Source of the DNA: Clostridium sp. Marseille-P2415 | GTDB taxonomy: Bacteria > Bacillota > Clostridia > Lachnospirales > Lachnospiraceae | Assembly: GCF_900155545.1 (NCBI RefSeq) | Contig: NZ_LT732526.1 | Coordinates: 2,097,567 to 2,151,446, forward strand | Reading direction: 5' to 3' | DNA: 53,880 nt | The notes under the pieces: generated by a model | Seen by the model: the letters and a program-made list of their open reading frames with translations, nothing else | Database searches by the model: none | Told to the model about the DNA's origin: nothing | In this document: positions 1,934-42,221 of the stretch, in pieces | How the letters are laid out: each line of letters starts with the position of its first letter | Numbering within the stretch: position 1 is the stretch's first letter | Made by a program: the position numbers and the translations under genes

Positions 1934-2218
1934 ATGCCTAATTACAGACCAGTTGTGAGAACAATCGGAGCTGCTTCAGCCATCTCGGCAACCATCGTTG
2001 CTGCAGATCTTACGACAACAAGCTGGGGATTGCTTTTAGTAAGAGGTTCCGCATTATTCAGCAATACAGTATTACGAAGCGGTGCAGTGGCAGTATGGGA
2101 AAGTACAAATCCGACGACTGCTTCTCCGGACCGTCAGACTTTTTCGGATGCCAACGGAACTTATGGTATCACTTGCAGAGCAGGCGTGCAGCTTCGCTTC
2201 AAGTTCTACAGCAGTTAA
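1934..2218 (+). CDS. small protein (94 aa), possible Ig/transthyretin-like member of the small-protein array
   Basis: Starts 9 nt after a G-rich ribosome binding site (AGGGGGGG). No family is recognised with certainty. The N-terminal half is rich in Ala/Thr/Ser and mildly hydrophobic but lacks a lysine-led signal peptide. The C-terminal half contains SGAVAVWES and DANGTYGITCRAGVQLRF. That resembles the beta-strand pattern of the carboxypeptidase-regulatory-like domains in the next genes (GxVY, then a D-x-x-G-x-Y turn, then a terminal strand). It is the first gene of the rightward operon and is followed by an intercistronic hairpin, so it may be made in excess of the downstream genes. It could be an abundant structural or acceptor protein; that is inference. 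Confidence 0.7.
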   Translation: MPNYRPVVRTIGAASAISATIVAADLTTTSWGLLLVRGSALFSNTVLRSGAVAVWESTNPTTASPDRQTFSDANGTYGITCRAGVQLRFKFYSS

Positions 2219-2225
2219 TTCTTTA

Positions 2226-2250
2226 AGGGTGTCTCAAATTGGGACACCCT
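2226..2250 (+). terminator. intercistronic hairpin without U-tract (attenuator or mRNA-stabilising stem)
   Basis: A 10-bp stem (AGGGTGTCTC with GGGACACCCT, one G-U pair) closes a 5-nt loop, 7 nt after the stop of the 94-aa gene. There is no run of T after it, so a partial terminator or a 3'-end stabiliser is more likely than a full stop. It would set the ratio of the first gene to the rest of the operon. Confidence 0.6.
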
Positions 2251-2289
2251 CTCCATTCGAGATCAATGTATAACAAAGGAGGCGAAGGA

Positions 2290-2637
2290 ATGATACCAAA
2301 AGTTGTTTTAACAGGCTGTCAGATCATTTGTTCCAGAATCGTGACTGCAGATGTTACCTTACCGAAAAATGCGTTTTTTTTTATAAAAGGAATCGTTTAC
2401 AGCCCAACAGGAGAACCATTGCCGAATGCCGCAGTTGAAATACGTTTGGTTGATGATTCCCATATTCCTTCTACAGAAAAAAGCCTTGGCGTGACCTTTA
2501 CGCTTCATGACGGTTCGTATGGAATATCACTGCCCAGAATCTGCGGGATGCAATATAAATTAATTGCCTATTCCCCTGTATATGCGGAAGGAAAAAGAAG
2601 CTTCGGCTGGAGCGGAGGTTATTATGAAAAAGTATAA
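2290..2637 (+). CDS. small carboxypeptidase-regulatory-like (Ig-like) domain protein
   Basis: 115 residues. The start is fixed by AAAGGAGG about 7 nt upstream of ATG 2290; the longer frame from 2239 would begin inside the hairpin region. Residues ~35-60 read FFIKGIVYSPTGEPLPNAAV, the hallmark first strands of a carboxypeptidase regulatory-like (transthyretin-fold) domain: G-x-V, then P-L-x-x-A-x-V. They are followed by HDGSYGISLP and a terminal strand YKLIAYSPVY. There is no signal peptide, transmembrane helix or LPxTG. The domain is normally a module of secreted or surface proteins; here it stands alone. The gene overlaps the Maf glycosyltransferase start by 14 nt, which points to translational coupling. 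The function is unknown; substrate or scaffold for glycosylation is a guess from context. Confidence 0.8.
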   Translation: MIPKVVLTGCQIICSRIVTADVTLPKNAFFFIKGIVYSPTGEPLPNAAVEIRLVDDSHIPSTEKSLGVTFTLHDGSYGISLPRICGMQYKLIAYSPVYAEGKRSFGWSGGYYEKV

Positions 2638-4357
2638 AACATTGGATGGATATGACGTCTATCGAATAAAAAAAGATAAAAAATTCTATTTTTTGGCGGA
2701 TAGGCTTGATTATAAAAAAGAGATCAATCAATTATCAGATACATTGGATGATCTGAAATTTGACTCCCTGATTTTTTTATTTGGAATTGATACCGGGGAA
2801 TACATCGATGAGATAAAAAAATTATTATGTAAAAAAAACAGAGTGATCATTTTTGAACCAAACCGTGCAATTTTTAAAAAATATGATCCGGATATTGCAG
2901 ATAACATAAAGCTTGTTTTGTTTGAAGAAAAACAGGTAATAAAAATATTTGCCGATACGATCAATTATAAAAATATTAATAATGTGTATTTTTATGCTTT
3001 CGGCAGCTATGGCAGGATTTACAAAAATGAATACGACTGTTTGGTCGAACATTTGGACTGGACAATAATCAATGCAGCCTCGCAGGTAGATTTAGCAAAG
3101 CGCTTTAAAAAAATATTTATTCAGAATATGATCGCGAATATGAAAATGATAAATGAGTGCACTCCCATTCACCATTATATGTTTACAAACCTCAATGTAC
3201 CGGCAATTGTGGTGTCAGGAGGCCCCTCTCTGGATTTAAATATCAAGGATATGCTTTTATACAAAGAGAAGCTTAAAAAGTGCTTTATCATTACAGGAAG
3301 CAGGACCGTCGATGCCCTGGTTAAGAATGGGATCCTGCCCGATATGATCGTATCCGTTGATCCGGTGGAGGCAAACTATGACATGATGAAGGATCATCTG
3401 GATCTGGATGTTCCGATCGCATTTTATGAATACAGCAACCGGTATTTAATAAGGGATTATAAAGGAGATAAAATTTTCATTTCCCTTCTGTTCTCTCAGA
3501 CGATCAGGGGCTTCGAGCAGTTAAAAGGGGTCTATTGCGGAGGTTCGGTGGCTCACGCCTGCATTGATATCGCAAATATGCTGGGATGTTCTCCAATTAT
3601 ATTTGCAGGCCAGGATCTTGCCCATACCTTTAATAAGCATCACGCAGACAGCGCGGTTTTTGATTATGATAAAACCCTTCACTACAGGTCTCAGATAAGT
3701 GTAAAGGATGTATATGGGAAACAAATAGGAACTACGGTAACATTGGACCATTACAGAAGAAAACTGGAGCACTATATCAATCAATACAAAGAACAAAAAC
3801 GAATCCGGTTCATCAATTGTTCCTACGGCGCCGATATCAAAGGCGCACCGCATAAAGAATTTTCAAAAGTTTTTGAACAGGAACGGTTTGATAAGCGAAA
3901 AAAGAGCTGTATCCCGATTCAGGATATTGCAGTCAACAGCAGGGAAACGGTCGGCTCGATCCTTCGATTTATTGATGAGTATTTGATAAAGGCGGGCCAC
4001 GGCCTGGAATTATGTGAAATTATTATTTCTGAAAATCAGACAAAATCGTTAATAGAGGCTGACGAGGAGGATATGGATCTGCAAAGGATTCTCTATATCC
4101 TTCAGATTGTAAATGACTTTGAAAATGCTGCGGACAGCAAATATTTAGGCGGATACTTCAGTGAATTTCTATATGAAATGAAAGAAAAAACATTTTTTAT
4201 GTATGCAAAGGATTATGAAAGACTGACTTCTGATTTGCAGCATCAGGCAGGCGCTTTTAAAGTATATTTTGAAAAGATGAAAGAAATGCTGGAAGAAGTA
4301 AAAAAGACAGCCCTGGAAACGGTAACAGAATTCTATAAACAGCATATAGTTAAGTAA
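2624..4357 (+). CDS. Maf-type (motility accessory factor, DUF115) glycosyltransferase
   Basis: 577 residues from ATG 2624, which has GGAGG 10 nt upstream; the longer frame at 2564 lacks a site. It has an N-terminal Rossmann-like part, then the DUF115/MptE-like core at residues ~190-340 with VVSGGPSLDLNI, a PDMIVSVDP strand-turn and FAGQDLAHT. These are the conserved blocks of the Maf family, which in Campylobacter, Aeromonas and Clostridium transfers nonulosonic acids (pseudaminic or legionaminic) from CMP-sugars to flagellin Ser/Thr in the cytoplasm. The C-terminal ~150 residues are helical. Seven legionaminate biosynthesis genes follow in the same operon, which fits the donor. The acceptor is not shown by sequence: it could be the flagellin at 40410-42221 or the small array proteins around this gene. 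Confidence 0.88.
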   Translation: MKKYKTLDGYDVYRIKKDKKFYFLADRLDYKKEINQLSDTLDDLKFDSLIFLFGIDTGEYIDEIKKLLCKKNRVIIFEPNRAIFKKYDPDIADNIKLVLFEEKQVIKIFADTINYKNINNVYFYAFGSYGRIYKNEYDCLVEHLDWTIINAASQVDLAKRFKKIFIQNMIANMKMINECTPIHHYMFTNLNVPAIVVSGGPSLDLNIKDMLLYKEKLKKCFIITGSRTVDALVKNGILPDMIVSVDPVEANYDMMKDHLDLDVPIAFYEYSNRYLIRDYKGDKIFISLLFSQTIRGFEQLKGVYCGGSVAHACIDIANMLGCSPIIFAGQDLAHTFNKHHADSAVFDYDKTLHYRSQISVKDVYGKQIGTTVTLDHYRRKLEHYINQYKEQKRIRFINCSYGADIKGAPHKEFSKVFEQERFDKRKKSCIPIQDIAVNSRETVGSILRFIDEYLIKAGHGLELCEIIISENQTKSLIEADEEDMDLQRILYILQIVNDFENAADSKYLGGYFSEFLYEMKEKTFFMYAKDYERLTSDLQHQAGAFKVYFEKMKEMLEEVKKTALETVTEFYKQHIVK

Positions 4358-4383
4358 AATAGGAATAAAAAGGGGAGCTATGC

Positions 4384-4629
4384 ATGGAAAAAGAGGATCA
4401 AAATGAAATCAATGATGCCAAATATAAAGAAATCAAGATAAATAAAATGATTATAAACGGAAAAGAACAGGAAGGGAACATCATCAGCGCGGAGGATACA
4501 AAGGATAAACAGGAATTAAACGTAACCGTTTATACACAGAGCATAAAAACGGCTGAAAAAAAGGGAGGGAGGCACAGTTGGATCCATGAATTGCTTCAAA
4601 AAGGCCTCTTTCATGATAAGCGGAGCTAA
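4384..4629 (+). CDS. unknown small hydrophilic protein (81 aa)
   Basis: Has a good ribosome binding site (AAGGGGAGC) and sits 26 nt after the Maf gene. It is highly charged, rich in Lys, Glu, Asn and Ile, with a middle segment INKMIINGKEQEGNI and no membrane segment or recognised motif. Its end overlaps the next reading frame (starting 4586) by 44 nt, unusually long for two genes of an operon. Either this protein or the start of the next is therefore less certain. It could be a truncated or diverged member of the array. Confidence 0.55.
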   Translation: MEKEDQNEINDAKYKEIKINKMIINGKEQEGNIISAEDTKDKQELNVTVYTQSIKTAEKKGGRHSWIHELLQKGLFHDKRS

Positions 4630-4888
4630 GCTCCATTCCTGCAGAGAAAATCATTTTAACATTCAGCTGGAAAGACAGAACTTCCAAATCATCAACGGAA
4701 CCGTTTATAACCAGAACCAGGAGCCATGCCCGGGGGCGGCTGTCCAGGTAATTCAAATAAACTGTAAGGATCATACAAGAAATCTGCTGGGATATGTTCT
4801 GACAGATGAAAACGGGCACTATTTATTTCCCATTGAAGCAAAACCTTATATGAAGTATGAATTAGCGGTCTATGCTCCGCTTCTCTGA
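4586..4888 (+). CDS. small carboxypeptidase-regulatory-like (Ig-like) domain protein
   Basis: 100 residues. The core at residues ~32-100 reads QIINGTVYNQNQEPCPGAAV, then GYVLTDENGHYLFPI and YELAVYAPL. These are the same strand-turn-strand signatures as the proteins at 2290 and 4909. The ATG at 4586 lies 13 nt after GGAGGGAGG, a long spacing; ATG 4613 is an alternative without a clear site. No export signal. The stop codon overlaps the region carrying the ribosome binding site of the next gene, so translation is probably coupled. Confidence 0.72.
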   Translation: MNCFKKASFMISGAKLHSCRENHFNIQLERQNFQIINGTVYNQNQEPCPGAAVQVIQINCKDHTRNLLGYVLTDENGHYLFPIEAKPYMKYELAVYAPLL

Positions 4889-4908
4889 TGCAAAAAGGAG
4901 GAATTCTG

Positions 4909-5208
4909 TTGAGCTGTTATACGGAAGTAACTGTAACTCCAGAGGATTTGAAGAACCGGAAGATGATACAGACAACGATTGCCATCGAACGGTCTGATGA
5001 AGTTTTATTATCGGGAACGGTCTATAATTCACGATGCGAAGCACTGGAAGGTGCCGTTGTCCTGATTATGGAAATTTACCCGGGAAAACAAAGAGTAAAG
5101 AAAGGCTATGTAATAACCAACCGGTTCGGTGAATTCGCAGTCACGGTAAGTAAAAATAAATATGTCAATTATCAGCTGGATATATATGAACCTTTTATAA
5201 CCGGTTAG
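4909..5208 (+). CDS. small carboxypeptidase-regulatory-like (Ig-like) domain protein, TTG start
   Basis: The frame is open from ATG 4888, but that ATG overlaps the previous stop and lies before the AAAAAGGAGG motif (4892-4901). TTG 4909, seven bases after that motif, is the likelier start and gives 99 residues. The core reads VLLSGTVYNSRCEALEGAVV, then GYVITNRFGEFAVTV and YQLDIYEPF, again the carboxypeptidase-regulatory-like pattern. It is closest in layout to the protein at 4586, suggesting tandem duplication followed by divergence. No signal peptide or membrane helix. Function unknown. Confidence 0.75.
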   Translation: MSCYTEVTVTPEDLKNRKMIQTTIAIERSDEVLLSGTVYNSRCEALEGAVVLIMEIYPGKQRVKKGYVITNRFGEFAVTVSKNKYVNYQLDIYEPFITG

Positions 5209-5223
5209 ATAAGGATGATCGCC

Positions 5224-5487
5224 ATGGAGCAAATTTATAATGAATATGATACAGAAAATGTCCTGATCAAAGGATGGATCCGCTATCAGGATTTCAGTCC
5301 GGTAAGAGGTGCTGTTGTCATTTTAGAAAAGATTGATTGTTTCTATAACGAAGAATTACAGGAAGAAGATTATCAGGGTATTTATCTGAATCATACTTTA
5401 ACAAATAGAAATGGAGAATTCTGTTTTATTATAACGGACAAAAAAAGCAGTTATAAAATAAAAGTTTTTGATAACCATCACAGGTAA
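5224..5487 (+). CDS. small carboxypeptidase-regulatory-like (Ig-like) domain protein
   Basis: 87 residues from ATG 5224, with AAGGA 8 nt upstream; an in-frame ATG at 5215 overlaps that site. It keeps the pattern VLIKGWIRY, then PVRGAVVILE, then LTNRNGEFCFII and YKIKVF. It has a longer acidic loop (residues ~45-60) between the second and third strands than its neighbours. It is the last of the array, 11 nt before legB, so it is co-transcribed with nonulosonate synthesis. Function unknown. Confidence 0.72.
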   Translation: MEQIYNEYDTENVLIKGWIRYQDFSPVRGAVVILEKIDCFYNEELQEEDYQGIYLNHTLTNRNGEFCFIITDKKSSYKIKVFDNHHR

Positions 5488-5498
5488 GGGGGAACAAA

Positions 5499-6479
5499 AT
5501 GAAAAAAGTTCTGGTTACAGGAGCAGATGGATTTATCGGCAGTCACTTAACCGAAACACTGATTGAACGCGGATATGATGTAAAGGCTTTTACCTTTTAC
5601 AATTCCTTCAATACCTGGGGATGGTTGGATTCCCTTCCCAGCAGTATAAAAAAAGAAATAGAAATCCAAAGCGGAGACATCCGGGACCCAAACGGTGTGC
5701 GGAATGCCATGGAAGGGGTTGAATCCGTCTTCCACCTTGCCGCATTGATTGCGATCCCCTTCAGTTATCATTCTCCGGACTCTTATGTGGATACCAATAT
5801 AAAAGGTACCTTAAATGTCTTACAGGCTGCAAGAAGCCTTGGTACCGGTAAAGTGCTGGTGACCTCTACTTCTGAGGTTTATGGCAGCGCCAGATATGTT
5901 CCCATTGATGAAAACCATCCATTTCAGGGACAGTCACCCTATTCCGCAACGAAAATAGGAGCTGACCGGTTAGCAGAGTCCTTTTACCGAAGCTTTTCCC
6001 TTCCGGTCACCATTGTCCGCCCATTTAATACCTATGGGCCAAGACAATCTGCAAGAGCTGTGATACCGGCCATTATCAGCCAGCTGTTAACCGGAATCGA
6101 AGAGATCCGGCTCGGCAGCCTGACTCCTACCAGAGATTTTAACTATGTGGGGGATACGGTAAATGGATTTATTGAAATAGAAAGATCTGATCAGACCATA
6201 GGAGAAGAAATCAATATTGCCAGCCAGAAAGAGGTTTCCATTGGGGATCTGGCATCGGAACTGATCCGCCAGATCAATCCAAAAGCCAGAATTATCTGTG
6301 ACACAAAACGTCTGCGCCCTCAAAAAAGCGAGGTAGTCCGGCTCATGGGATCAAATCAAAAACTAAAGGAGCTCACCGGCTGGAAACAGGAATATACGCT
6401 CTCTCAGGGCCTTAAAAAGACCATTGACTGGATGAGCCAAAATCTGGATCACTACAAGGCGGATATCTATAATATTTAG
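5499..6479 (+). CDS. legB: NAD-dependent 4,6-dehydratase of legionaminic acid synthesis (LegB-like)
   Basis: 326 residues, an extended short-chain dehydrogenase. The Rossmann motif TGADGFIGSH is at the N terminus, TSTSEVYGSA carries the active-site region and YSATKIGADR gives the catalytic Tyr-x-x-x-Lys. In the Campylobacter pathway LegB converts GDP-GlcNAc to the 4-keto-6-deoxy sugar. First enzyme gene of a seven-gene run in pathway-like composition, preceded by AAGGGGGGAAC. A generic UDP-sugar 4,6-dehydratase is the alternative, but the gene order legB-legC-ptmE-neuD-neuB-neuC-neuA supports LegB. Confidence 0.88.
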   Translation: MKKVLVTGADGFIGSHLTETLIERGYDVKAFTFYNSFNTWGWLDSLPSSIKKEIEIQSGDIRDPNGVRNAMEGVESVFHLAALIAIPFSYHSPDSYVDTNIKGTLNVLQAARSLGTGKVLVTSTSEVYGSARYVPIDENHPFQGQSPYSATKIGADRLAESFYRSFSLPVTIVRPFNTYGPRQSARAVIPAIISQLLTGIEEIRLGSLTPTRDFNYVGDTVNGFIEIERSDQTIGEEINIASQKEVSIGDLASELIRQINPKARIICDTKRLRPQKSEVVRLMGSNQKLKELTGWKQEYTLSQGLKKTIDWMSQNLDHYKADIYNI

Positions 6480-6506: not shown

Positions 6507-7655
6507 ATGATACCTTTGTCTGTTCCTAACTTAAAAGGAAATGAAAAAAAATATCTTCTCGATGCACTGGATAAAGGCTGGGTTTCAACCTCCGGCAGTT
6601 ATGTAACGAAATTTGAACAGGATATGGCGGCCTATTTGAATACAAAAGGCGCTGCCGCTGTTCAAAGCGGAACCGCCGCGATCCATCTGGCTCTGCTCCT
6701 TTCCGGCGTCAATTCTGAAAATGAAGTCATTGTTCCCACTCTTACTTTTATAGCCGCTGTTAATCCGGTAAAATACATAGGAGCAGAGCCTGTTTTTATG
6801 GATTGTGATGATTCTCTTAATATGGACTGCTGCAAGCTTGAGGACTTTTTAAAAAAGGAATGCCAAATGACTCCCCTGGGACTGCAAAATAAACGTACAA
6901 ACCGGATCATCAAGGCAATCATCGTAGTCCACATCTTTGGCAATATGGCGGACATGGAGCGGTTAAGAGCCTTTGCCGACGAATATGGCATCCAACTGAT
7001 CGAAGATGCTACGGAAGCTCTTGGAACCTGTTACACCCAGGGAGAATACAAAGGACAGTTTGCCGGGACGATCGGTGATTTCGGAGCCTACTCCTTTAAC
7101 GGCAATAAAATAATAACCACAGGCGGAGGCGGAATGCTGACGGCTAAGGATGACAAAGCCCTGGAAAAAGCAAAATACCTCGCGGCTCAGGCAAAAGACG
7201 ATCCTCTTCATTATACACACAATGAAATAGGCTTTAACTACCGCATGACAAATCTGCAGGCAGCGCTGGGAGTCGCCCAGCTGGAATGTCTGGAAGATTT
7301 TATTCAGATCAAGGAAAAAAATTACCAATACTACAGCGATGCAATCAAATCAATGGAAGGATTCGAATTGCTTAAGTTTCATGATAAAACACGCAGCAAC
7401 CACTGGTTTTATTCTTTGCTCATACAAAAAAGCGGATTAAGCCGGGACACTGCAATGAAGAAATTAAAAGAGGCGGATATTGAAACAAGGCCCATATGGC
7501 AGCTGATCCATACGCAGAAAATGTACCGGAACAACCAGACCTATTACATCGAAAAGGCTCCCTTTTACCGGAACAGCGTCATGAATATCCCCTGCAGTAC
7601 CAATCTTTTAAGGAAGGATATGGATCATATCATTCAAATGCTGAAAAGCTTGTAG
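6507..7655 (+). CDS. legC: PLP-dependent sugar aminotransferase (LegC-like)
   Basis: 382 residues of the DegT/DnrJ/EryC1 family. GTAAIHLALLLSG is near residue 55, IEDATEALG holds the cofactor-stacking and aspartate region, and SFNGNKIITTGGGG contains the lysine that forms the Schiff base with PLP. Its role is amination at C4 of the 4-keto sugar made by LegB. The start at 6507 follows GGGGGA by 6 nt. It lies 27 nt after legB, in one transcript. Confidence 0.88.
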   Translation: MIPLSVPNLKGNEKKYLLDALDKGWVSTSGSYVTKFEQDMAAYLNTKGAAAVQSGTAAIHLALLLSGVNSENEVIVPTLTFIAAVNPVKYIGAEPVFMDCDDSLNMDCCKLEDFLKKECQMTPLGLQNKRTNRIIKAIIVVHIFGNMADMERLRAFADEYGIQLIEDATEALGTCYTQGEYKGQFAGTIGDFGAYSFNGNKIITTGGGGMLTAKDDKALEKAKYLAAQAKDDPLHYTHNEIGFNYRMTNLQAALGVAQLECLEDFIQIKEKNYQYYSDAIKSMEGFELLKFHDKTRSNHWFYSLLIQKSGLSRDTAMKKLKEADIETRPIWQLIHTQKMYRNNQTYYIEKAPFYRNSVMNIPCSTNLLRKDMDHIIQMLKSL

Positions 7656-7676: not shown

Positions 7677-8723
7677 ATGGAGGTCAGCAGATTCTTTATA
7701 TCGCCGGATATTCCGATTCGGGAGGCAATCGGACAATTGGACCGGACAGCGAAAAAAATTCTTATTGTCACAGAAGAGAAAAAGCTGGCCGGGGTCCTGA
7801 CAGATGGGGATATCAGACGGTGGATATTAAAAAATAAAGATATCTCCCTGCCGGTCCGTTTCATCATGAACCCCTCTCCCATCGTTATAAAAAAAGAAGA
7901 ACAGCACCTGGCACTGGAAATCATGAAAGAAAAGCAGATCGAAGGGCTGCCTCTGATCAATGATGACAATGAAGTTGTCGATATTCTGTTTTGGAATGAA
8001 ATCAGCGATCATGAATACAATTACGGAAAGCAGAATCCCACACCGGTCGTCATCATGGCCGGCGGAAAGGGCTCCCGGTTATATCCCTATACCAAAATCA
8101 TTCCCAAACCCCTGATTCCTGTCGGGGATATACCGATCGTAGAACGGATCATGAATCAAATCATGGAGTATGGATTTCATGAATTCTATATTACCATAAA
8201 TTATAAAAAAGAGCTCATAAAAGCTTATTTTAACGGAGATTTTCCATATCATCTGCACTTTATCGAAGAGGATAAGCCGCTGGGAACAGCCGGCTCCCTG
8301 AATCTTGCAAAAAAATATATAAACGGCAGCTTCTTTGTAAGCAACTGTGACATCCTGGTGGACATCAATTATACCAAACTGCTGGTTTACCACAAAACCC
8401 ACCAAAATAAGATCACCATTGTGACGGCTATAAAAAGCTATGAAATTCCATATGGAGTCGTTACCCTGGATAAGAACGGGAATATCGATGCCCTGAGCGA
8501 AAAACCCAGATACGAGCTGTTAGTCAATACCGGCTTGTATGTGCTGGAGGAAGAGATTTTAAAATATATCCCCCAGAATCAGTATTTTGATATGACAGAC
8601 CTGATTCGAACATGTATAAAAAACGGGGAACAGATCGGAGCCTATCCTGTTATGGACAGCACCTGGCTTGATATGGGGGAATTTAGTGAAATGAAGAAAA
8701 TGGCAGAAAGAATGAAATTATGA
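7677..8723 (+). CDS. ptmE: CBS-domain nucleotidyltransferase, PtmE-like (GlcN-1-P guanylyltransferase)
   Basis: 348 residues. Two CBS repeats fill residues ~1-115 (GVLTDGDIRRWIL and EGLPLINDDNEVVDI). They are followed by a sugar-nucleotidyltransferase domain starting PVVIMAGGKGSRLYPYTK with the downstream KPLIPVGDIPI and SNCDILVDINY. This CBS plus nucleotidyltransferase fusion is the PtmE architecture; in Campylobacter jejuni it makes the GDP-glucosamine that feeds the GDP-linked legionaminate route. Its presence argues for legionaminic rather than pseudaminic or sialic acid. The stop overlaps the next start by 4 nt. Confidence 0.85.
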   Translation: MEVSRFFISPDIPIREAIGQLDRTAKKILIVTEEKKLAGVLTDGDIRRWILKNKDISLPVRFIMNPSPIVIKKEEQHLALEIMKEKQIEGLPLINDDNEVVDILFWNEISDHEYNYGKQNPTPVVIMAGGKGSRLYPYTKIIPKPLIPVGDIPIVERIMNQIMEYGFHEFYITINYKKELIKAYFNGDFPYHLHFIEEDKPLGTAGSLNLAKKYINGSFFVSNCDILVDINYTKLLVYHKTHQNKITIVTAIKSYEIPYGVVTLDKNGNIDALSEKPRYELLVNTGLYVLEEEILKYIPQNQYFDMTDLIRTCIKNGEQIGAYPVMDSTWLDMGEFSEMKKMAERMKL

Positions 8724-9367
8724 AAGAAGAAATGATTCTGATCGGCGGCGGCGGCCATGCAGAAAGTATCATTGATACGATCCAGGCACTGGAGCAATAC
8801 GAGATCATTGGCATTCTGGATAACAATAAAAAAATCAATACGGAAATTCTGGGTGTAAAAGTCATAGGAAACGATTCGGATTTAAACGAATATTTTGAAA
8901 TGGGAATAAAAAATGCGGTCCTTGCCATAGGCAGCATGGGGAACACCGGACCAAGGCGGAAGCTTTATGACCTCTGCAAAAAAATAGGCTACAAATTTCC
9001 GAATATTATCGATAAAAGCTCCATTGTATCGGAGACCTTAAGAATCGGCGAAGGAAATTTTATTGGAAAAGGTGCCATAATCAATTCCAGGGTCACGATC
9101 GGCAATGCATGTATCATCAACACAGGATCCATTCTGGAGCACGGATGTACCCTCGGAGACTTTGTTCATATCGCACCCGGAAGCGTTCTGTGCGGAAACG
9201 TCCGGATTCAGGCGAACACACACATCGGAGCACATTCTACCATTCTGCAGAACGTGACAATCGGGAATGACACCATGATCGGAGCCGGAAGCCTGGTACT
9301 GAAAAACATATCCCCCTATCAATTGGCTTATGGTAGCCCGGTAAAGGAGGCAGCTTTGCATGAGTAA
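8720..9367 (+). CDS. legH: sugar O/N-acetyltransferase, NeuD/PglD family (LegH-like)
   Basis: 215 residues. It has an N-terminal nucleotide-sugar-binding Rossmann-like part with MILIGGGGHAESIID. Hexapeptide-repeat coils run from about residue 105 to 200 (IGKGAIINSRVTIGNACII, IAPGSVLCGNV, IGNDTMIGAGSLVL), forming the left-handed beta-helix of acetyl-CoA-dependent transferases. In this operon the expected job is acetylation of the 4-amino sugar from LegC. Starts in an ATGA overlap with ptmE and overlaps legI by 8 nt. Confidence 0.85.
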   Translation: MKEEMILIGGGGHAESIIDTIQALEQYEIIGILDNNKKINTEILGVKVIGNDSDLNEYFEMGIKNAVLAIGSMGNTGPRRKLYDLCKKIGYKFPNIIDKSSIVSETLRIGEGNFIGKGAIINSRVTIGNACIINTGSILEHGCTLGDFVHIAPGSVLCGNVRIQANTHIGAHSTILQNVTIGNDTMIGAGSLVLKNISPYQLAYGSPVKEAALHE

Positions 9368-10355
9368 AATCATGATCATTGCCGAAGCAGGAGTCAATCA
9401 CAACGGAGATTTAAATACTGCCAAACGGCTCGTAGATGCTGCAAGTACCGCAGGCGCAGATGCGGTCAAATTCCAGACGTTCAAAGCGGGACATCTGGCA
9501 GTTCCTTACGCACAGAAGGCAGACTATCAAATGCAGAACACCGGCCGGTCATCATCTCAATATCACATGCTGAAAGAGCTGGAATTGTCCTGGAACGACT
9601 TTGAGGAGCTCTACCACTACTGCTCCGTAAAAAAAATAAAATTCCTGTCCTCTCCCTTTGACGAAGAAAGTATTGATTTTTTAGACCGGCTTGGCGTTGA
9701 CACCATAAAGATCCCGTCCGGAGAGATTACCAACTATCAATATCTGCAAAAAACAGCCTCTATAAAGAAGCCGGTTATTTTATCGACCGGAATGGCAACG
9801 CTGGAGGAAATCGGCCAGGCTCTGGAGCTCTTAAATAAAAGCGGCGAGGAGATCATACTGCTTCACTGCTCCAGCGCCTATCCCGCTCCAATGAAGGAGG
9901 TCAATTTAAAGGCTATGTATACATTAAAAGAGATTTTCCATAAAAGAGTGGGGTACTCGGACCATACCCTGGGGATCGAAGTTTCCATCGCTGCTGCTGC
10001 TCTCGGTGCCTGCGTGTTAGAAAAGCATATGACTCTGGACAAAACCATGCCCGGACCGGATCATAAAATAAGCCTGGAGCCGGAGGAATTCAGGCGTCTG
10101 GTGGCCGGTGTCAGAAATATTGAGGAAGCGCTGGGAGACGGAATCAAAAAGCCGGCGGATGCTGAACAGAAGAACAGGGAGTTCGTCAGAAAATACCTGG
10201 TGGCCGCGAAGGAAATCAAAAAAGGGGAAGCATTCACCCTGGATAATCTATGCGCAAAACGCTGCGGACACGGCATCTCTCCCATGAAGATCAGGGACCT
10301 CCTGGGAAAAACGGCCCAAAAAGACTATTCAAAGGATGAGAGGATCGGGGAATGA
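9360..10355 (+). CDS. legI: N-acetylneuraminate/legionaminate synthase (LegI/NeuB)
   Basis: 331 residues. The NeuB TIM-barrel opens with IIAEAGVNHNGD and DAVKFQTF, continues with IKIPSGEI and HCSSAYPAP, and GYSDHTLGIE and EKHMTLDK hold catalytic and metal-site residues. An SAF antifreeze-like domain follows (residues ~275-331, RKYLVAAKEIKKGEAFT). It condenses phosphoenolpyruvate with the 2,4-diacetamido-6-deoxymannose product of LegG to give the nine-carbon acid. AAAGGAGG at 9344 supports ATG 9360. Confidence 0.93.
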   Translation: MSKIMIIAEAGVNHNGDLNTAKRLVDAASTAGADAVKFQTFKAGHLAVPYAQKADYQMQNTGRSSSQYHMLKELELSWNDFEELYHYCSVKKIKFLSSPFDEESIDFLDRLGVDTIKIPSGEITNYQYLQKTASIKKPVILSTGMATLEEIGQALELLNKSGEEIILLHCSSAYPAPMKEVNLKAMYTLKEIFHKRVGYSDHTLGIEVSIAAAALGACVLEKHMTLDKTMPGPDHKISLEPEEFRRLVAGVRNIEEALGDGIKKPADAEQKNREFVRKYLVAAKEIKKGEAFTLDNLCAKRCGHGISPMKIRDLLGKTAQKDYSKDERIGE

Positions 10356-11521
10356 TAAAATTATGTGTGGTGACCGGAAGCCGGGCAGAATTCGGCCTGT
10401 TAAACCCAGTTATAAAGCGGATCCATGAGGACCCGGATTGTAAGCTCCGGCTGATTGCAACCGGAAGCCATCTGGATACCCGTTATGGACTGGATTACAG
10501 GGAGATCGAAGAACAGGGGATAAGCATCGATGAAACAATTGAAATGAACCTGGCCTCCGACACCCCCCGGGGAATATGCAAATCCATGGGCTTGGAAATG
10601 ATCAGCCTGTCGGAGGCCTACGAAAGATTAAAGCCGGATATGGTACTGCTTCTCGGTGACCGTTATGAAATCTTCATGGCCGCAGCCGCCGCCGTCATCT
10701 GTAAAATCCCCATTGCCCATATCCACGGCGGGGAAATAACCCGAGGAGCTTATGATGACTGCATGAGACATGGGATCACCAAGATGAGCTACCTGCACTT
10801 TACCAGTACGGAGGAATACCGGCAGAGAGTCATCCAGTTAGGGGAAGATCCGGAAAGAGTATTTCACGTAGGTGCGCTGGGCATCGAAAATATCAAAAAC
10901 CTCCGGCTCCTGACAAAGGCGGAACTGGAAAACGCATTGAACCTGTCCTTATCCGCTCCCACCGCCCTTGTCACCTATCATCCTGCCACCCTGGAGCCTG
11001 ACACTATCTCCGGCCAGTTGGAGCCATTGTTAAAAGCCTTAAATTCCTTCCCTGATTTATTTGCGGTCTTCACAAGGAGCAATCCGGATACCGGCGGAGG
11101 GAGAATCAATGAAATGATTGAGGATTATGTGAGCAGGAATCCCCAAAGGGCGGCGGTATTCACATCTCTTGGGACGCTTCGGTATCTCAGCCTGATGAGC
11201 CACAGCCAGATGGTGATCGGAAATTCTTCCAGCGGGATCATTGAGGCGCCGTTTTTAAAGGTGCCTTCCGTTAATATCGGAAGCAGACAGGAAGGAAGGG
11301 TAAAGCCTCCATCCGTCATAAGCTGCGGCCATTCCGTAAACGGGATCATCACTGCCATGGAACAGGCACGAACCTATGACCGGACCAAGGACCATGGTCT
11401 AAATCCTTATGAAGGACACCACACCAGCCGGGAGATCCTTCGGATGATCAAGCTGGCTTTTGAAAAGGGAATCCAGCCGGAAAAAAAATTTTATGATATT
11501 GATTGGAACCGTCATGTATAA
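10352..11521 (+). CDS. legG: hydrolysing NDP-sugar 2-epimerase (LegG/NeuC)
   Basis: 389 residues of the UDP-GlcNAc 2-epimerase superfamily, hydrolysing branch. Seen: CVVTGSRAEFGLL at the N terminus, LLGDRYEIFMAAAAA, AHIHGGEITRGAYDD and the C-terminal IGNSSSGIIEAP. It removes GDP (or UDP) and epimerises C2 to give the free mannose-configured diacetamido sugar used by LegI. The start overlaps the legI stop by 4 nt and the stop overlaps legF by 8 nt, so the last enzymes are tightly coupled. Confidence 0.92.
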   Translation: MIKLCVVTGSRAEFGLLNPVIKRIHEDPDCKLRLIATGSHLDTRYGLDYREIEEQGISIDETIEMNLASDTPRGICKSMGLEMISLSEAYERLKPDMVLLLGDRYEIFMAAAAAVICKIPIAHIHGGEITRGAYDDCMRHGITKMSYLHFTSTEEYRQRVIQLGEDPERVFHVGALGIENIKNLRLLTKAELENALNLSLSAPTALVTYHPATLEPDTISGQLEPLLKALNSFPDLFAVFTRSNPDTGGGRINEMIEDYVSRNPQRAAVFTSLGTLRYLSLMSHSQMVIGNSSSGIIEAPFLKVPSVNIGSRQEGRVKPPSVISCGHSVNGIITAMEQARTYDRTKDHGLNPYEGHHTSREILRMIKLAFEKGIQPEKKFYDIDWNRHV

Positions 11522-12227
11522 AAATAAGACTTTTCTGGGGATCATACCTGCCCGAAGCGGCTCAAAGGGGATCCCGGATAAGAATATAAGGGAAATAAAC
11601 CACAAGCCTCTCATGGCATACACCATTGAAGCCGGAAAAAAATCAGGGCTGTTTGATCAGCTCCTTGTTTCAACGGATTCGGAAAATTATGCGGAAATTG
11701 CAAAACAATATGGAGCCAGCGTGCCGTTTTTAAGGCCAAAAGAACTGGCTTCCGATCAGGCGGCCACAAAGGATGTCATCCTTCATGCCATAAAGGAATT
11801 AAGTGAACAGGGGAAAACCTTTGATTACTTCATGGTCCTGCAGCCCACTTCCCCACTCAGAAATGAAACCCATATCCTGGAAAGCGCCGATCTCCTGTTA
11901 AAAAAGAATGGGGACGCTGTCATCGGCGTGTGCAGAACGGAGCCCGTCTCCCATCTGGCCGTTCCATTGACCGAAACAGGAGAAATAAAGGCCGGTTTTC
12001 CGGATAAACGGCCGGCCAGAAGACAGGATTTCCCGCCGGAATACAGGATAAACGGAGCCCTTTACCTGGTTTCGGCCAATATTTTTCTAAAATACGGAAG
12101 CTTTTACGCAGGAAGGACTTTACCCTATTTCATGAATGCCATTGATTCAATAGACATTGATGATGAATTTCAGTTAAAAATCGCGGAACTGCTTCTGATG
12201 GATCAGGCGTCCCCAACCTGCAGATAA
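11514..12227 (+). CDS. legF: CMP-nonulosonate cytidylyltransferase (LegF/NeuA)
   Basis: 237 residues from ATG 11514; the frame is open upstream to 11460, but the family starts at the FLGIIPARSGSKGIP motif just downstream. LQPTSPLR and the terminal SIDIDDEFQLKIAE with its metal-binding acidic pair are classical for CMP-sialate/legionaminate synthetases. It makes the CMP-sugar that Maf enzymes use. It is the last gene of the operon and is followed within 2 nt by a strong palindromic terminator. Confidence 0.92.
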   Translation: MYKNKTFLGIIPARSGSKGIPDKNIREINHKPLMAYTIEAGKKSGLFDQLLVSTDSENYAEIAKQYGASVPFLRPKELASDQAATKDVILHAIKELSEQGKTFDYFMVLQPTSPLRNETHILESADLLLKKNGDAVIGVCRTEPVSHLAVPLTETGEIKAGFPDKRPARRQDFPPEYRINGALYLVSANIFLKYGSFYAGRTLPYFMNAIDSIDIDDEFQLKIAELLLMDQASPTCR

Positions 12228-40409: not shown

Positions 40410-42221
40410 CTACTGTAACAATTGAAGCACACCCTGGGGAATCTGATTTGCCTGAGCAAGCATTGCCTGGGATGCCTGAACAAGAATCTTATTCTTGGTT
40501 AATCCCATCATCTCCTGTGCCATATCAACATCACGGATCCGGCTTTCTGCTGCTGTCATATTCTCTGAGGTCACGCTTAAGTTATTGATGGTATGCTCCA
40601 GACGGTTCTGAAGAGCTCCTAAGTCACCGCGGGTGGAAGATACGGAATTAATAGCATTTTTAATTAAATCAACCGCACTCTTTGCTCCTGCCTGTGTGCC
40701 GATATCAATGCCGGCAATGCCTAAGGTTTTTGTATCCACGCTTCCTACAGAAACCGTCATCTGGTTGAACTCCTGTGCTGATTCACCAATCTGGAGAGTC
40801 AGGCCTGCCCCCTTTTTCTTTGCAGGATCAATGGTTGTGTCAGCTTTGAATTCGAAATGAGAGGCTACTGCAGTGCTGGGAGATGCCGATTTATCGCCGG
40901 CGCCCCCAACAAATGCCACATTCATGCCAAGGGCCTTTCCGAGAGCCACTGCAATGGCATCTCCCTGAAGCTTTGCCGCATCATTCTTCTTATCGTTACC
41001 GGAAGCAGCGGAATCGTCTACATCTAATTTAAGTGACCCGTCTCCGGCGGTTGCAAATGTACCATTGGTATCATCTACGGAGCTTACCTTAATAATTTCC
41101 AGACCTGCATCAGATGCCTTTTTAACCAGTTTGGCAGTATCTTCAGAATCAGACTGTTCTACAATAATTGCAAATTTTTTATCATTGATGGTCAGTACGG
41201 TTTGGTCTGTGCCATCATATTCTTTGCCTGTAAACTGAGAACCATCGATCGTCTGATAAGCATCTGCTCCTTTTGTATAGGTCAAAGATTTCGTAGCCTG
41301 GCTTTTCATGGTACCGTCAGCATTTTTAATGGTAGCATTAAAATTTGCCAGTACCTGCGGTGCGTCAGCACCTGCCACCTTATTGGTCAGTGTAAAGGTA
41401 CCGTCTCCATTATCCGCAACCTTAAAATCTTTACCGATATCACTATCTCTCAGAGCACCCGTTAACGCTTTTCCGAGCTCGACAGCTGTTGGTCCAGTGG
41501 TTCCGCCAGCTGCATATTTTCCATAAACAGAGCCATCTGAACCGACCAGTTCTCCACCGGCCGTACCGTCCGTATAATCCCTGGCAGTCAGTGAAACCTT
41601 TACATTTTTGCCATTGTTCAAAGTGGTTGTCAATTCCAGCGTCTCACCATTTTTTATATCGCCATTGCTGAATGCAGCGTTAGTATAGCTGCCCTTTGTG
41701 GCTGCAACATCAACAATGGTTAATTCTCCACCGTTAAATTCCGTACTGAGACCAGCCGCTGCTTTTGCTGCGGAGGATGCGGTAGAGCCGGAGGCAGACA
41801 GGGAACCGTCAAGAAGCGTAATGCCGTTATAGTTCGTTCCTTCGGAAATACGGTTAATTTCATCCTTTAATGAAGTAACTTCTTTCTGCAGATTCTCACG
41901 GTCTACATTATCCTGATAAGTACCATTGGCTGACTGGTCTGCCAGCTCCACCATACGGTTTAACATGGAATGAACTTCAGTTAATGCGCCTTCTGTTGTC
42001 TGAATTAAAGAAATACCGTCGTTTGCATTCTTCTTGGCAGTATCAAGACCAGTGATTTGGGCTCTCATCTTTTCGGAAATAGCAAGACCCGCTGCATCAT
42101 CGCCTGCCCGGTTGATCCTATAACCAGAAGACAGCTTCTCCAGGTTCTTAGATACGGAATTGTTGTTTCCTGTTAAATTTCCGTAAGCGTTTAAAGCCGT
42201 AATGTTGTGTTGAATTCTCAT
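40410..42221 (-). CDS. hag: flagellin (large, variable central domain)
   Basis: 603 residues. Conserved D0/D1 N terminus (MRIQHNITALNAYGNL, KLSSGYRINRAGDDAAGLAI) and C terminus (TAAESRIRDVDMAQEMM, ILVQASQAMLAQANQ) are intact, with a Ser/Thr/Ala/Gly/Asp-rich central domain of ~330 residues. Clostridial flagellins are often ~270-400 residues, so the exposed domain is large and rich in possible O-glycosylation sites. AAGGAGG lies 9 nt before the ATG and is itself one of two likely CsrA sites. No other flagellar structural gene is in the window. Confidence 0.97.
   Translation of the reverse strand: MRIQHNITALNAYGNLTGNNNSVSKNLEKLSSGYRINRAGDDAAGLAISEKMRAQITGLDTAKKNANDGISLIQTTEGALTEVHSMLNRMVELADQSANGTYQDNVDRENLQKEVTSLKDEINRISEGTNYNGITLLDGSLSASGSTASSAAKAAAGLSTEFNGGELTIVDVAATKGSYTNAAFSNGDIKNGETLELTTTLNNGKNVKVSLTARDYTDGTAGGELVGSDGSVYGKYAAGGTTGPTAVELGKALTGALRDSDIGKDFKVADNGDGTFTLTNKVAGADAPQVLANFNATIKNADGTMKSQATKSLTYTKGADAYQTIDGSQFTGKEYDGTDQTVLTINDKKFAIIVEQSDSEDTAKLVKKASDAGLEIIKVSSVDDTNGTFATAGDGSLKLDVDDSAASGNDKKNDAAKLQGDAIAVALGKALGMNVAFVGGAGDKSASPSTAVASHFEFKADTTIDPAKKKGAGLTLQIGESAQEFNQMTVSVGSVDTKTLGIAGIDIGTQAGAKSAVDLIKNAINSVSSTRGDLGALQNRLEHTINNLSVTSENMTAAESRIRDVDMAQEMMGLTKNKILVQASQAMLAQANQIPQGVLQLLQ

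Follow-up and report, generated by a model that had tools for sequence, protein, structure and literature searches.

What does a Maf-type nonulosonate glycosyltransferase modify when the genes around it encode proteins of only 87-115 amino acids (aa)? This question is raised by a locus on contig NZ_LT732526.1 of Clostridium sp. Marseille-P2415, within a 53,880-nucleotide stretch of DNA that we refer to as the window. Five small open reading frames (ORFs) in that size range, all with plausible ribosome-binding sites, lie around a single Maf within a run of 14 co-directional genes (A1, B, Maf, X, C, D, E and seven nonulosonate genes) ending at 12227. An original prediction made from the sequence alone had described at least four, probably five, mini-proteins around one Maf ahead of seven legionaminate genes. 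The ORFs, their ribosome-binding sites and the family matches bear out this array, but the inventory overlooked X (4384-4629), a promoter (1862-1888) and a stem-loop (2226-2250). We propose, with a probability of roughly 0.65, that the locus is a late-sporulation mother-cell operon making a nonulosonate-decorated spore-surface protein. The co-occurrence of A1 and this Maf clade supports the view that Maf, the nonulosonate genes and the mini-proteins make up a dedicated system; the acceptor, the sugar product and the location on the spore are what we infer. The genes at the centre of the proposal are these:

1934 to 2218, + strand: A1, a Ser/Thr-rich (23/94), basic mini-protein of 94 aa with no Pfam match in the window.
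2290 to 2637, + strand: B, a mini CarboxypepD_reg-like protein of 115 aa overlapping the start of Maf (PF13620, E 5e-5, 24.0 bits).
2621 to 4357, + strand: Maf-type nonulosonate glycosyltransferase (PF01973, E 5e-42, 144 bits against a gathering score of 34.6).
4384 to 4629, + strand: X, a small conserved protein with a core of about 54 aa and no Pfam match near the cut-off.
4586 to 4888, + strand: C, a mini CarboxypepD_reg-like protein of 100 aa (PF13620, E 3e-5, 24.8 bits).
4909 to 5208, + strand: D, a mini CarboxypepD_reg-like protein of 99 aa with a TTG start (PF13620, E 0.04, 14.6 bits).
5224 to 5487, + strand: E, a mini-protein of 87 aa with profile links of 96-97% to C and D.

The association between A1 and this Maf was followed through a sample of 145 related genomes and a second, partly overlapping sample of 391 Clostridia. 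Some Maf match was found in 47/145 relatives, 24 of them close (59-100% identity) and 23 distant (at most 37%). The close set consists of the genome itself, 22 of the 24 other members of its genus, and G136, which belongs to another family. A1 is present in all 24 of these genomes versus none of the remaining 121. Among the 391 Clostridia, A1 occurs in 5/5 genomes that score at least 671 bits with the Maf profile and in 0/386 others; the next seven Maf matches (E<=1e-40) reach at most 328 bits and are without A1. Two members of the genus, G017 and G022 (98-99% complete), are without this Maf and A1 and have SpoIVA.

The same 14-gene order was found in all 21 complete loci of the relatives sample (L038-L058; 20 from the same genus plus G136), a count that excludes the contig ends L059/L073, L069 and L018. 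Because the gene arrangement is conserved between families, it is not a product of chance. In the L. xylanisolvens ASCUSBR21 chromosome (L058/L089), B, Maf, ptmE, neuB, neuC and neuA lie in neighbouring pieces, through either sequencing error or decay; L058, from the same genome as L089, was counted in the gene order, and its partial B did not enter the family profile. Scanning named genomes yielded nine holders beyond the relatives sample, namely [Clostridium] fimetarium, Lachnotalea glycerini, Galacturonibacter and a Clostridia metagenome-assembled genome, together with C. beijerinckii HUN142, C. weizhouense, C. hydrogenum, Clostridium sp. CMCC3677 and a Clostridium metagenome-assembled genome. 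A1, B, Maf, X, C, D and E are present in 9/9 of them. X is found in the window, in all 22 relatives-sample loci, in the nine further named loci and, weakly, in a distant locus, L100. In the five Clostridium loci B precedes A1, and the set of sugar genes is reordered or, as far as the fetched DNA goes, incomplete: neuB and neuC were not seen in L086, nor neuB in L090; legC was likewise not seen in the fetched DNA of L071. L100, from the distant genome G519, holds Maf (47%), A1, B, C and X beside pseudaminate-type genes, a pathway read from the sequences rather than from a family search; D and E were not found there. Since this reduced core sits with pseudaminate-type genes and the sugar genes vary elsewhere, the core of the system is the mini-proteins plus this Maf, accompanied by a variable sugar cassette. 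A Capnocytophaga match (L091, 30% over 89 residues) was discarded as spurious.

The most familiar role for such an enzyme would be in flagellar modification: Maf may still glycosylate flagellin here, with the mini-proteins as accessory factors. The Mafs of PMC13317340 and PMC11339370 act on flagellin (here and below, statements from the literature refer to the accessible portions of the cited papers). Across the 5.25-Mb genome, Maf is moreover the sole PF01973 match at E<=0.001; the genome has a single strong NeuB as well, and the window itself contains a flagellin gene 28 kb from the operon. That gene (40410-42221, 603 aa) is part of a genome with four Flagellin_N matches. The loci themselves point in the other direction. 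Flagellin was found in 0/32 fetched loci of this Maf clade (8.5-21.7 kb each; tblastn with the window flagellin) versus 11/13 fetched loci of other Mafs, and mini-proteins were seen in 0/13 of the latter. These control loci are the best-scoring of 30 other-Maf genomes, 6/23 from the relatives sample and 7/7 from the Clostridia (E<=1e-40). Two of them, L119 and L063, have flagellin along with a complete set of legionaminate-type genes, and no mini-proteins, while in L115 flagellin lies directly before Maf, the position of A1 and B here. Flagellin beside maf, as in a flagellin glycosylation island, was not found at this operon, and G017 and G022 carry flagellin in the absence of such a Maf.

The Mafs also form a separate group, in that 20 mini-protein-associated sequences fall on one side of a branch with support 100/99. 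They are nested inside other Mafs on a midpoint-rooted tree, although this tree has long branches and its root serves for drawing only. The named loci L069, L073, L075, L079, L088 and L089 are outside the tree, as are Maf rows below 480 or above 800 aa, and L116 is labelled 'flag' in it, although its contig ends before any flagellin appears. How far the small genes accompany Maf-legionaminate loci in relatives, a point raised by the original prediction, thus depends on the branch: the flagellin-adjacent L063 and L119, whose Mafs belong to other branches, are without them, whereas every complete own-clade locus examined has them, L100 with a reduced set.

Signals around A1 bear on when the operon may be expressed:

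1862 to 1888, + strand: sigma-K-type promoter AC-N16-CATACTATA, -10 element at 1880-1888, its 5' end 72 bp ahead of A1.
1894 to 1907, + strand: perfect palindrome GAAATACGTATTTC where the transcript is predicted to start, just past the -10 element, forming a weak 5' hairpin.
2226 to 2250, + strand: stem-loop directly past the A1 stop (fold z -3.8).

A sigma-K consensus of (a/c)AC(a/c)-N16-CATA-N3-TA has been given (PMC5749712), and the -35 elements stated for C. difficile are AC with sigma-K and ATA with sigma-E (PMC3789822). We scored the motif AC-N16/17-CATANNNTA within 200 bp upstream of A1 and found it in 22/23 named loci, many of which are closely related so that the counts are not independent, versus 4/359 control ORFs (at least 150 aa, longest-frame starts, both strands, in 24 named loci). 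Its 5' end lies at -67 to -75 of A1 in 21 of the 22 loci, and where A1 stands second, in the five Clostridium loci, the motif is still ahead of A1 in four, including L085. The sigma-K-type motif is weak alone; its conserved position is not. Among ten flagellin upstream regions from other Maf loci, a sigma-D-like motif occurs in five and the sigma-K motif in one, at -235. With the promoter differing in this way, and with no flagellin in the loci of this clade, we regard continued modification of flagellin as improbable. The original prediction had offered three roles for the mini-proteins, as glycosylation acceptors, chaperones for the acceptor, or subunits of a glycosylated surface or spore structure; because the promoter is of the sigma-K type, glycosylated spore-structure subunits and/or acceptors fit best.

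The region of the palindrome (1890-1935) has a fold z of -3.0, and the palindrome may be either a regulator site or a 5' mRNA hairpin. A search for the -10 element plus palindrome returned a single occurrence in the genome within 3 mismatches, and therefore no wider regulon can be read from it. The other 20 aligned same-genus loci carry a 16-nt variant, AGAAATACGTATTTCT, and Galacturonibacter (L081) shares the 14-nt form of the window. The stem of L083 is of another sequence (AGAAGA...TCTTCT), and the palindrome is missing from L057 and from the Clostridium loci. Downstream, a fold z below -2 was obtained after A1 in 18/24 cases, compared with 4/23 for B, 0/25 for X, 0/24 for C, 0/23 for D and 4/24 for E, and the sequences of the stem-loops after A1 differ from lineage to lineage. 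We propose that this element is a leaky terminator or a stabiliser of the mRNA 3' end, which fits synthesis of A1 in excess.

CarboxypepD_reg (PF13620) domains are normally modules of larger proteins. Here, unlike these usual modules, the domain stands alone and under the gathering score; the match to the model spans 50-70 residues in B and C, none of the mini-proteins in the window reaches the gathering cut-off of 32.3, and A1 and E are without any Pfam match. With relatives included, PF13620 is matched at E<=0.01 by 26 of 37 B, C, D and E sequences. In profile-profile alignment B, C and D are mutually linked and E is linked to C and D (96-99% probability), with only 3% for B against E directly; A1 reaches 80% with B and at most 2% with C, D or E, and X appears unrelated to the mini-proteins. 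This pattern of links suggests that B-E are one paralogous set, of which A1 is a probable, less certain member. An Ig-like fold had originally been predicted for all of them; an AlphaFold model of C is a confident beta-sandwich (predicted local distance difference test, pLDDT, 80; predicted template modelling score, pTM, 0.71), for which no specific match stood out in a comparison with PDB structures, while the model of A1 is unusable (pLDDT 48). By-eye inspection showed no signal peptide on the mini-proteins. A1 is 24% Ser+Thr with an isoelectric point of 10, and its S49, T61, T69 and T80 are Ser or Thr in 24/24 aligned sequences.

The divergence of the tandem genes had been taken as a sign of diversifying selection, an idea that is ruled out by ratios of nonsynonymous to synonymous substitution (dN/dS). 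Across eight close sequences the medians are 0.08 for A1, 0.16 for B, 0.17 for C, 0.13 for D, 0.16 for E, 0.17 for X and 0.10 for Maf; four enzymes tested gave similar values (0.08-0.12), and the pairwise maximum was 0.36 (X). The mini-protein genes are under purifying selection.

Alternatively, A1-E and X may be GlfM-like chaperones or adaptors that present a sigma-K-controlled structural protein encoded elsewhere, so that the system would still be directed to the spore. Some Mafs of flagellar islands, the Maf-2 enzymes, depend for flagellin binding on a factor, GlfM, encoded alongside them (PMC13317340), and by analogy a GlfM-like role for X or some of the mini-proteins is possible; X is the candidate adaptor. 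Several mini-proteins are Ser/Thr-poor, and multiple paralogues could form a presentation complex. L100 encodes a 564-aa repeat protein between B and A1 (8263-9957), a possible larger partner or acceptor. Nevertheless, the loci other than L100 showed no large conserved gene that could encode such an acceptor, and A1 has retained its own promoter position together with a 3' stem-loop that would fit synthesis in excess. We therefore consider a purely presenting role unlikely and propose A1 as the main acceptor or structural subunit. In [Clostridium] fimetarium (L071, 11666-12518) an extended X frame of 189 aa overlaps the C frame, which opens with a His/Arg/Lys-rich repeat.

The remainder of the operon would supply the sugar:

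5499 to 6479, + strand: legB, NAD-dependent 4,6-dehydratase (TIGR04180, 502.6 bits, cut-off 475).
6507 to 7655, + strand: legC aminotransferase (TIGR04181, above cut-off).
7677 to 8723, + strand: sugar-1-phosphate nucleotidyltransferase (general nucleotidyltransferase families only, under their cut-offs).
8720 to 9367, + strand: NeuD/PglD-type sugar acetyltransferase (TIGR03570, above cut-off).
9360 to 10355, + strand: neuB/legI nonulosonate synthase (TIGR03569, above cut-off).
10352 to 11521, + strand: neuC/legG hydrolysing 2-epimerase (TIGR03568, above cut-off).
11496 to 12227, + strand: neuA/legF/pseF-type cytidylyltransferase (TIGR03584, PseF, 182.3 bits, under its cut-off of 205.7).

Linked nonulosonate biosynthesis is thus represented by legB, legC, NeuD, NeuB and NeuC passing NCBIfam cut-offs and a cytidylyltransferase below its own; the labels CBS and PtmE-like for the nucleotidyltransferase are ones that we presume to apply. 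The operon neuB is the sole strong NeuB of the genome (334 bits). A second NeuB-family match, in a 343-aa frame (G000:C9:1402699-1403280), scores 34.9 bits, weak though above the Pfam cut-off of 22.1.

Sugar genes of this kind could also feed a spore-surface glycan, primed by Maf on a coat protein, that the mini-proteins only bind or anchor. Bacillus subtilis spores bear legionaminic acid from the sps spore-crust pathway, which is under late mother-cell sigma-K control (PMC7439481), a likeness that rests here on the pathway genes and the promoter match. Against a glycan of this type, inspection of the operon ORFs revealed no polymerase, flippase or second glycosyltransferase, and Maf is by family a protein O-glycosyltransferase; we give the idea hardly any credence. 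In B. subtilis, as far as the accessible text of PMC7439481 goes, the transferase and the acceptor of spore legionaminic acid are unidentified, whereas the operon described here holds Maf and candidate acceptors together. SpsM of B. subtilis uses UDP-GlcNAc and LegB of C. jejuni GDP-GlcNAc.

If the operon does make a decorated spore-surface protein, its steps may be pictured as follows. The promoter match at 1862-1888 would be used by sigma-K RNA polymerase, and A1, which is read first and followed by the stem-loop, would be made in excess over the downstream enzymes. The seven sugar genes, judged by their enzyme families, would yield cytidine monophosphate (CMP)-legionaminate or a close relative. 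Maf, perhaps aided by X, would move this sugar onto Ser/Thr of A1 in the mother-cell cytoplasm, and possibly onto B-E, a transfer suggested by Maf biology and by the position of A1 and B in place of the flagellin of flagellar Maf loci (L115). The likeliest target in A1 is the Thr/Ser-rich stretch ESTNPTTASP. For one clostridial Maf, modification has been reported at Ser/Thr of loops exposed on the surface; this enzyme also accepted a chimera built on a beta-sandwich protein, but not non-cognate flagellin (PMC11339370). Because the mini-proteins have no signal peptide by eye and the promoter suggests sigma-K timing, the glycosylated forms may be deposited on the spore from the mother-cell side and build a coat, an exosporium nap or an appendage. 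In evolutionary terms, a flagellin-Maf-nonulosonate cassette may have dropped its flagellin acceptor and acquired the mini-proteins, and it would be able to swap its sugar pathway between a legionaminate type and a pseudaminate type, as in L100. Somewhat more tentatively, at just short of even odds, a flagellin-glycosylation machine may have been rewired to sporulation, with self-assembling mini beta-sandwich acceptors forming a sialic-acid-like spore layer or appendage and an exchangeable sugar cassette.

Several observations weigh against a spore-directed acceptor system. Flagellin is present in 33/33 holders tested (24 plus the nine further ones; G519 excluded), and SpoIVA in 11/11 further holders and all sampled genus members except G010 (67% complete); because holders have both, the phyletic profile is uninformative on flagella versus spores, and presence and absence leave room for a flagellar role. 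Ser/Thr residues are few in C (6%) and E (8%), and therefore not all mini-proteins resemble O-glycosylation acceptors, while A1 is tied to the CarboxypepD_reg set by one profile match, its 80% to B, and has an unusable structural model. As for the promoter, the motif lies at -145 in L085, and L087 has none before A1; no such promoter was found before A1 in L100, where both + strand matches are inside A1 or at the end of Maf. Across the whole window the motif matches 5 times, compared with 2.3 +- 1.5 in 100 first-order Markov sequences. The relatedness of the promoter loci and the long branches of the Maf tree point the same way.

The closest known arrangements, flagellin Maf/legionaminate islands of Clostridia (L119, L063; PMC13317340), likewise place a PF01973-type Maf near legionaminate genes; those islands have flagellin, whereas here there are five mini-proteins plus X, a sigma-K-type promoter and a separate group of Mafs. 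A further likeness, drawn from description, is to the appendage genes P29a/P29b/GP85/CL2 of C. taeniosporum, adjacent paralogous structural genes that include a glycoprotein and have five candidate sigma-K promoters, perfect or with one mismatch (PMC5749712). The appendage proteins are DUF11 and collagen-like, unlike the mini-proteins, and the accessible main text of that paper does not contain the word glycosyltransferase. Our literature search, which covered titles and the openings of abstracts, with subscription papers largely outside it and supplements not covered, found no account of a system of this composition.

If our proposal is true, spore-timed mini-proteins would be a second natural class of Maf acceptor besides flagellin, a substrate class not met in the literature searched, and A1 with Maf would make a very small protein O-glycosylation pair. 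The operon would also offer a compact genetic case for a question posed by B. subtilis, namely which transferase attaches legionaminic acid on the spore and to what target (PMC7439481). More broadly, nonulosonates carried by clostridial spores could influence how the spores adhere, spread and are recognised by hosts.

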